Below, in pieces: positions 19,778 through 21,902 of a stretch of DNA of 35,665 nt. This DNA comes from Acidobacteriota bacterium (GTDB taxonomy: Bacteria; Acidobacteriota; Terriglobia; 2-12-FULL-54-10), in contig SHUM01000037.1 of NCBI GenBank assembly GCA_009691245.1, positions 1 to 35,665 of the forward strand, read 5' to 3'. A program made the position numbers and the translations under genes. Numbering within the stretch: the first letter of the stretch is position 1; every line of letters starts with the position of its first letter. Below the pieces are notes generated by a model. That model did no database searches. It was not told where the DNA came from and saw only the letters and a list, made by a program, of their open reading frames with translations.

Positions 19778-20599
19778 ATGTCTGGTAAGTTGTCCCGGAG
19801 TTTGCTCGTTATTGTTTCCGCCATTCTATTGCTTTCTGTTTTTGGCGCAACGTCCCTGCGTGCCGCCGAGGGGTTGACGCCCAAATCGCGCATGGCCATC
19901 CTGCGCGGGCTGATCGCGGAATATTGCACGACGCGCGTGGCGCTGCCGCTGGGCGAAAAGGGCGTCGAGCTTTCCACCGCAGGCGAGATCGATCAGGAGA
20001 GTCTTACCCGAGAGATGGCGCAGAACGGTTCAGCCGCCCAGCAGAATCAATTGGTGCAGATTACCGCCATCGCCTTCCGCGACAAAGAAATCCTCTTCGA
20101 GATCAACGGCGGCGGCAAGAAGAAAACCAAGTGGACCGACCGTATCGAAGTGGGCATGGGATCGAACACCACGCCGCTCAGCCGGCAGGACGGCAAGAAG
20201 GCTGTCGGGTCGTATATCACAATTGATTTTAATGGAAAGCTCCCCGACCTGACCGTGGACGAGCTGAAGGCCATGCTCAACACGGTGCTCGACTTCACTC
20301 CCGTCAATCCCATGCAGTCGATGAACGTTGTGGTGCCGGAGGAATTCAAGGAAGCCGTGGAGGCAAAGAAGGCCGAGGTAGGCATGTCCATGGACGTAGT
20401 TCGATTGTCCATGGGGCCACCCGATCAAAAGGTGCGTGAGACCAAGGACGGCGTCGAGCAGGAAGACTGGATCTACGGCAAGCCGCCGCTTAGGATGATC
20501 TTTGTAACCTTTGAAGATGATGTGGTGGTGAAAGTGGAGGAGATGCAGGGCGGCGTGCATGGCAGCATACAGGACTACCCGAAACAGCCGCCGCGTTAG
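19778..20599 (+). CDS. Exported hypothetical protein
   Basis: The 273-residue protein has a clear signal peptide (about 1-30: basic start, LLVIVSAILLLSVF, RAA cleavage area). The mature part has no family I can name. Its first half (about 31-135) contains EYCTTRVALPLGEKG and a charged FEINGGGKKKTKW strand. The last ~80 residues (SMDVVRLSMGPPDQKVRE...EDWIYGKPPLRMIFV) look like a BamE/OmlA-type 'GPPD...W.YG' fold, a pattern found in envelope lipoproteins, though no lipobox Cys is present. The start follows AGGAGG with 7-8 nt spacing. It lies 77 bp before the selenoprotein gene; a small GCGCCG/CGGCGC hairpin (20599-20615) begins at its stop codon and may separate the two units. Confidence 0.8.
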   Translation: MSGKLSRSLLVIVSAILLLSVFGATSLRAAEGLTPKSRMAILRGLIAEYCTTRVALPLGEKGVELSTAGEIDQESLTREMAQNGSAAQQNQLVQITAIAFRDKEILFEINGGGKKKTKWTDRIEVGMGSNTTPLSRQDGKKAVGSYITIDFNGKLPDLTVDELKAMLNTVLDFTPVNPMQSMNVVVPEEFKEAVEAKKAEVGMSMDVVRLSMGPPDQKVRETKDGVEQEDWIYGKPPLRMIFVTFEDDVVVKVEEMQGGVHGSIQDYPKQPPR

Positions 20600-20676
20600 C
20601 GCCGTGTAGCGGCGCGATGGCCTTGCCGATTCACTGGCGCATTAACCAAGGACCATCAGCCAAGGACCAGCAGCGA

Positions 20677-20910
20677 ATGCACATTCTCATTGAATACTGC
20701 TCGAAGTGAAACTACGAACCTACAGCCGTCAGTTTGACGCAGAAAATCCTGGTGGAGTTCAAGCAGCGCATCTCGCAGCTCGAGCTGAAACCCTTCAGCG
20801 ACGGGCGCTTCGAAGTATTCGTCAACTCGCAGAAAATTTTCTCGAAGCTCGCCGAGCATCGCTTCCCGGAAGCGAGCGACATCATCGCCGAGTTGAAGAC
20901 TCACAAGTAA
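20677..20910 (+). CDS. selW: SelW-like (Rdx family) selenoprotein, UGA at codon 11 read as selenocysteine
   Basis: An ATG (20677-20679) opens a frame of 77 codons plus TAA (20908-20910), interrupted only by TGA at 20707-20709. The product begins MHILIEYCSK-U-NYEPTA, so the TGA forms the C-x-x-U redox motif (Cys8, Sec11). That motif defines SelW/Rdx thioredoxin-like proteins; mammalian SelW has YCGAUGYKP at the same place. Later features also fit: a long amphipathic helix, an FSDGRFEVFVN strand pair, an IFSKLAEHRFPE turn and a C-terminal helix. The length matches small bacterial Rdx proteins. A hairpin resembling a bacterial SECIS follows the TGA. AAGGA lies 10 nt upstream of the ATG. The next gene starts 2 nt after the stop, implying an operon. 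The alternative is a nonsense-mutated Cys homologue. SelA/B/C/D genes are not in this window. Confidence 0.85.
20710..20753 (+). promoter_or_regulatory. Putative bacterial SECIS element
   Basis: Immediately after the in-frame TGA, a hairpin forms from CGTCA (20727-20731) and TGACG (20735-20739) with the tri-loop GTT (20732-20734). Its apical loop begins 22 nt after the TGA, within the 16-37 nt range known for SelB-dependent SECIS elements, and it contains the G-U expected in the loop. Weak outer pairing (CAG 20723-20725 with CTG 20749-20751) may extend it with an internal loop. A folding program would be needed to settle the full structure. Confidence 0.6.
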
Positions 20911-20912
20911 TC

Positions 20913-21902
20913 ATGTCCACTCTGCCGCTGCGTCGCTTCCTGCTGTGGCTGGCGTGCTGCACCGCGCTTATCACTGGTGGGGTCGCCAACCTCACCGCTG
21001 CTCCCATCGAGGTTCCCCCGCCAGTCCTCTCCGGGTTTGAATTACTTCGCAATGGCCATTACTCGAAAGCGCTGGAGGCGGCCCGCCATCTCGCAGGCGA
21101 ATTCCCCGCGCACCCGCTGCCGCCACTGCTGGAGGCCCAGGCTCACTTCGATCTCATCTTCTGCCAGACCGGGCACATCAATGCAAAAGAACTCTGGCAT
21201 TTCTCCGAAACTCCCGACAGCCCTCTGAATCAACCGTTCGCGCGCGCCGTGGACAAGGTGTTCGAGCTCAGCGCGCAAATGAAACGGAGTCCGGAGACTT
21301 CCGCTGAGGCGCTCTTCTATGAGGGGACCGCGCACGGTTTCCGCGCGAGATTGCATACGCTACGCGAGCAGATGTTGCCCTCGGGCCGGGAGGGTAAGCA
21401 GATGCGCGAGGCGCTGCTCAAGGCCGTCGCGCTCGATCCGACGCTGGCTCACGATGCCGGCGTTGGCCTCGGCATTTATGACTACTACGCCGACTCGCTC
21501 TCGCCGCTCATCAAGTTTTTCAGGTTTTTCTTGTTCATCCCCGGCGGCAACATGGAACGCGGTATCGCGCAGCTCCACGCCGCGGCGGATACCGGCAATC
21601 TGTTCAGTCCGGAAGCGCGCTGGGAGCTGGCGCGAATCATCGGCGTCCGGGAGGGGCGCCACGAGGAGGCCGTTAAGCTGCTGGTCCCGCTCGTTCACGC
21701 CTATCCCGACAACGCGCTATTCGCGCTGCTCACCGCGCTCGAAGCGGAAGCCATGGGTAATTTGGAGATGGCCCGTGAATACGCACAGCGCGCCTTGGAG
21801 GCCTCGGCGCGCATGGACGTCGCCTGCCGACCCAAGCTTGAACCCGCCGCGCTGCAGGCCCTGGATCGCATAATGGCCGCCGCATCCGAGCCGCGCCAGT
21901 AG
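20913..21902 (+). CDS. Exported TPR-like hypothetical protein
   Basis: From the ATG at 20913 the protein has 329 residues with a signal peptide (about 1-30: LRRFLLWLACCTALITGG). The frame is open further upstream, but there it only re-reads the selenoprotein gene in another frame. The mature part is all-helical with tetratricopeptide-like units, for example FELLRNGHYSKALEAARHLAGEF (about 42-64) and a C-terminal pair around EEAVKLLVPLVHAYPDNALF and AREYAQRALEAS. A central FFRFFLFIPGGNMERGI segment is conserved-looking. The start lies 2 nt after the selenoprotein stop, so the two are almost certainly co-translated. A scaffold role in the envelope is inferred only from the fold. Confidence 0.85.
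   Translation: MSTLPLRRFLLWLACCTALITGGVANLTAAPIEVPPPVLSGFELLRNGHYSKALEAARHLAGEFPAHPLPPLLEAQAHFDLIFCQTGHINAKELWHFSETPDSPLNQPFARAVDKVFELSAQMKRSPETSAEALFYEGTAHGFRARLHTLREQMLPSGREGKQMREALLKAVALDPTLAHDAGVGLGIYDYYADSLSPLIKFFRFFLFIPGGNMERGIAQLHAAADTGNLFSPEARWELARIIGVREGRHEEAVKLLVPLVHAYPDNALFALLTALEAEAMGNLEMAREYAQRALEASARMDVACRPKLEPAALQALDRIMAAASEPRQ

Follow-up and report, generated by a model that had tools for sequence, protein, structure and literature searches.

CxxU SelW-like proteins were described in 2006 in Geobacter, Desulfotalea, Symbiobacterium, Alkaliphilus and other bacteria, and the same work gave a tally of four selenoproteins in three families for the Acidobacteria (PMC1794560). In the marine GOS set, SelW-like proteins formed the prokaryotic family with the most selenoprotein sequences, 427 (PMC2398784). 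A literature search on whether SelW had been reported before from this acidobacterial group returned general surveys only. In this study, we analyzed a window of 35,665 nucleotides from an acidobacterial genome, which contains a SelW-like (Rdx family) selenoprotein gene at 20677..20910 on the plus strand. The gene shares with the bacterial SelW-like selenoproteins (PF10262, TIGR02174, NF041051) the CxxU motif, the size, a profile match over the whole length and a UGA-encoded selenocysteine (Sec), and differs from them only in its species and its gene neighbourhood; with NF041051, the stricter model, it scores 74.7 bits (cut-off 88). It is thus an unremarkable representative of a selenoprotein family whose frequency in bacteria had already been established, and represents no new family or mechanism, in agreement with the first-pass annotation, which had called it a known family; few prokaryotic selenoproteins are better known than those of the CxxU SelW type (PMC2398784, PMC1794560). 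The Cys-type Rdx proteins of Acidobacteriota (e.g., L035, L036 and L038, with the form CTQC) and the structures 2p0g and 3dex have the same domain and the same CxxC/CxxU position, but carry Cys where the window protein has Sec, and are about 30% identical to it. Cys homologues, which the first-pass annotation had named as possible support, do exist in the class; judging from their sequences, they appear to form a branch of their own and not to be genes in which Sec was recently replaced. Mammalian SelW/Rdx12 (C17orf37, 2ljk) also belongs to the family by sequence, and C17orf37 was matched.

Read from the sequence, the frame comprises 77 codons from the ATG at 20677 to the TAA at 20908-20910, and the only internal TGA is codon 11 (20707..20709, plus strand). 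This frame, as originally claimed, was also recovered by a whole-genome search with Pfam Rdx, in which the locus was reported with '1 TGA' inside (E 1.8e-17) and proved to be the only Rdx gene of the host genome. A possible Shine-Dalgarno sequence, AAGGA, is located at 20662..20666 on the plus strand, 10 nt 5' of the ATG, and is also found in the sister species. With TGA read as Sec, the product is MHILIEYCSKUNYEPTAVSLTQKILVEFKQRISQLELKPFSDGRFEVFVNSQKIFSKLAEHRFPEASDIIAELKTHK, with the redox motif YCSKU near its N-terminus (residues 7-11). Pfam Rdx (PF10262) matches residues 3-73 with 73.4 bits (curated cut-off 22.6) and NCBIfam TIGR02174 (CXXU_selWTH; SelT/SelW/SelH) gives 66.4 bits (curated cut-off 34.2), which bears out the SelW/Rdx assignment made at first sight. 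The cut-off of 88 bits of NF041051 (SelTWH_Campy) was reached neither by the window protein nor by a same-class homologue (85.9 bits). The UGA of CSKU aligns with Sec or Cys in the homologues, and the motif stands at the CxxU position as had been proposed. Among solved structures, the closest in sequence belong to SelW-related proteins (e.g., 2p0g). From such relatives we infer that the product may be a small protein of thioredoxin-like fold, in which the CxxU pair would probably act as a thiol/selenol redox centre. From what is known of the family, bacterial SelW in general is probably a thioredoxin-like redox protein. Ordinary ORF calling with table 11 misses the gene, which is a reliable example of how selenoprotein genes are overlooked in this way.

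UGA codon 11 is almost certainly decoded as Sec. We hold with high confidence that 20677-20910 is a bacterial SelW-like selenoprotein gene, whose UGA would be read by SelB in complex with Sec-tRNA(Sec), with a short hairpin shortly downstream of the codon as its guide. The family, the UGA at the redox position, the decoding machinery and the conservation of UGA and hairpin were established here; Sec insertion itself is what we infer from them. The host genome (Acidobacteriota, 3.4 Mb) encodes the complete set of selA, selB, selC (tRNA-Sec) and selD, the presence of which had been named at the outset as a test on which the claim could fail. SelA (461.8 bits) and SelB (360.6 bits) were found without an in-frame TGA. 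The tRNA-Sec gave one strong match of 73.2 bits with the anticodon TCA, and further matches to the model scored 48 bits or lower; because of these weaker scores, and because the model also matches in 14 of 14 control genomes, they are probably other tRNAs. SelD (358.2 bits; L019:1402-2535, minus strand) contains an in-frame UGA in AAGUASK, which we take to be the usual Sec/Cys active-site position. SelD is therefore likely a second selenoprotein of the same genome, and its UGA provides further, independent evidence that UGA stands for Sec in this host. These observations also bear on the idea that UGA is generally recoded to a standard amino acid, or is passed by leaky readthrough. Under such a reading the codon would not have to stand exactly at the CxxU position of the Rdx family, nor would a second UGA be expected at the known Sec site of SelD, and other large conserved frames, such as those of SelA and SelB, contain no in-frame TGA. 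General recoding or readthrough is for these reasons extremely improbable, and Sec remains the preferred meaning of the codon.

A single-sequence scan of genome contigs gave two relatives only, and profile searches across the phylum were used instead. Among 60 relatives, selW with TGA in the CxxU motif was present in the sister species (94% identity), in four additional genomes from the same family and in several of the same class. The ten nearest homologues outside the host genome, which are 94 to 45% identical, all keep TGA at this position, as does one more distant homologue. Since TGA recurs at this codon in the nearest homologues, even at 45% identity, the in-frame TGA of selW is not due to chance. 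As the genome is a draft assembly, the one in-frame stop of selW could also point to a sequencing error or a pseudogene, that is, to an ordinary CxxC Rdx gene in which codon 11 recently suffered a nonsense mutation. However, TGA also stands at codon 11 in the sister species, across five genera of the family and in the majority of the Rdx genes found in the phylum, and the host possesses the complete Sec machinery. Moreover, the frame following the UGA is intact in the sister species and its differences are mostly silent, with seven at third, four at second and none at first codon positions. A stop followed by a decayed frame in close relatives, which would have spoken for such a pseudogene, was thus not what we observed. 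Retention of TGA across many genera refutes an error or pseudogene, to which we assign a negligible probability.

The window gene carries a bSECIS-like hairpin, CGUCA[GUU]UGACG, at 20727..20739 on the plus strand, the loop of which begins 22 nt after the UGA with a G as its first base. A hairpin just 3' of the UGA with a G opening the apical loop is what we take to be the criterion for a bSECIS. The element lies inside the coding region beside the UGA, unlike the eukaryotic SECIS, which is located in the 3' UTR. In 28 of 32 UGA homologues, at least five contiguous pairs enclose a 3-nt loop that begins exactly 22 nt 3' of the UGA, whereas a synonymous-codon null gave a mean of 3.0 and a maximum of 10 such hairpins among the 32 (2000 trials). 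In all 32, the loop opens with a G. Compensatory changes were observed at two pairs of the hairpin (columns 21/33 and 23/31), although the 17 sequences behind these counts are related and the counts do not represent independent events. Variants of the arms among the homologues include cgguca/ugaccg, ccguca/ugacgg and ccgcca/uggcgg. Folded alone, the UGA region of the window does not form an unusually stable hairpin (z about 0), and the five pairs by themselves reach p of about 0.08 under the synonymous-codon null. As neither stability nor pairing of the single sequence is significant, the evidence for the window hairpin is comparative. The region is also constrained by the encoded amino acids, AVSLT. 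Taken across the UGA homologues, the conserved hairpin appears to be as expected of a bacterial SECIS.

Downstream of selW, a gene for a 329 aa protein with a signal-peptide-like start and weak TPR-like similarity extends over 20913..21902 on the plus strand. It was anticipated that ordinary gene finding would start this gene wrongly at 20706, and indeed an open frame of 398 aa beginning with GTG 20706 exists, so that the 20677-20910 stretch might be taken for no more than the beginning of the downstream gene. The first 69 codons of that frame, however, overlap the conserved SelW frame in a different reading frame, and the 398-aa form has no family match. With ATG 20913 as the start, the signal-peptide-like stretch opens the protein, and it is from residue 8 of this shorter form onwards that homology to a second genus is seen. 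The longer frame is a mechanical artefact with hardly any likelihood of being the true gene; selW precedes a downstream gene whose likely start is its own ATG 20913. This ATG lies 2 nt past the selW TAA; coupling to the next gene had been suggested in the first-pass annotation. The arrangement is less general than this implied, as a homologue of the downstream gene adjoins selW in the sister species only, and in L041 a 41% identical homologue is found about 1 kb further on. The neighbourhoods in genomes of the same family show that the operon partner of selW backed by conservation is the upstream gene, not the downstream one. The upstream gene (19778..20599, plus strand) encodes a secreted-looking protein of 273 aa without any match in Pfam or NCBIfam. 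In the sister species and in four of four further same-family genomes with selW (49-56% identity in these four), its homologue immediately precedes selW and has the same orientation, with a gap of about 10 nt in L041. It is tempting to speculate that SelW works with this secreted-looking protein of about 270 residues in the family, a partnership that has not been described before, but we regard this as rather unlikely. If true, it could hint at what bacterial SelW does, and the conserved upstream neighbour provides a modest lead on this role.

Across the phylum, where the surveyed genomes are for the most part draft assemblies, the profile search detected an Rdx match in 116 of 396 genomes. 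The match contains TGA in 106 of the 396, and Sec-type SelW is thus widespread in Acidobacteriota. At a strict threshold of 1e-60, SelA was present in 98 of the 106 genomes with a TGA-containing Rdx match compared with 153 of the 290 others (Fisher p 7e-15, a value that ignores kinship among the genomes). The eight remaining genomes with a UGA-type Rdx comprise four that are at most 75% complete and four that are fragmented (130 to 650 contigs). Other families of the class likewise contain UGA-type SelW (L030, L033, L039 and other members). Many complete genomes of the class possess neither SelW nor SelA, which suggests that selenium use was lost in some lineages. A second, diverged UGA-containing Rdx match was detected in nine acidobacterial genomes (G061, G103, G122, G237, G290, G297, G314, G377 and G384), and possibly represents a second Sec subfamily.
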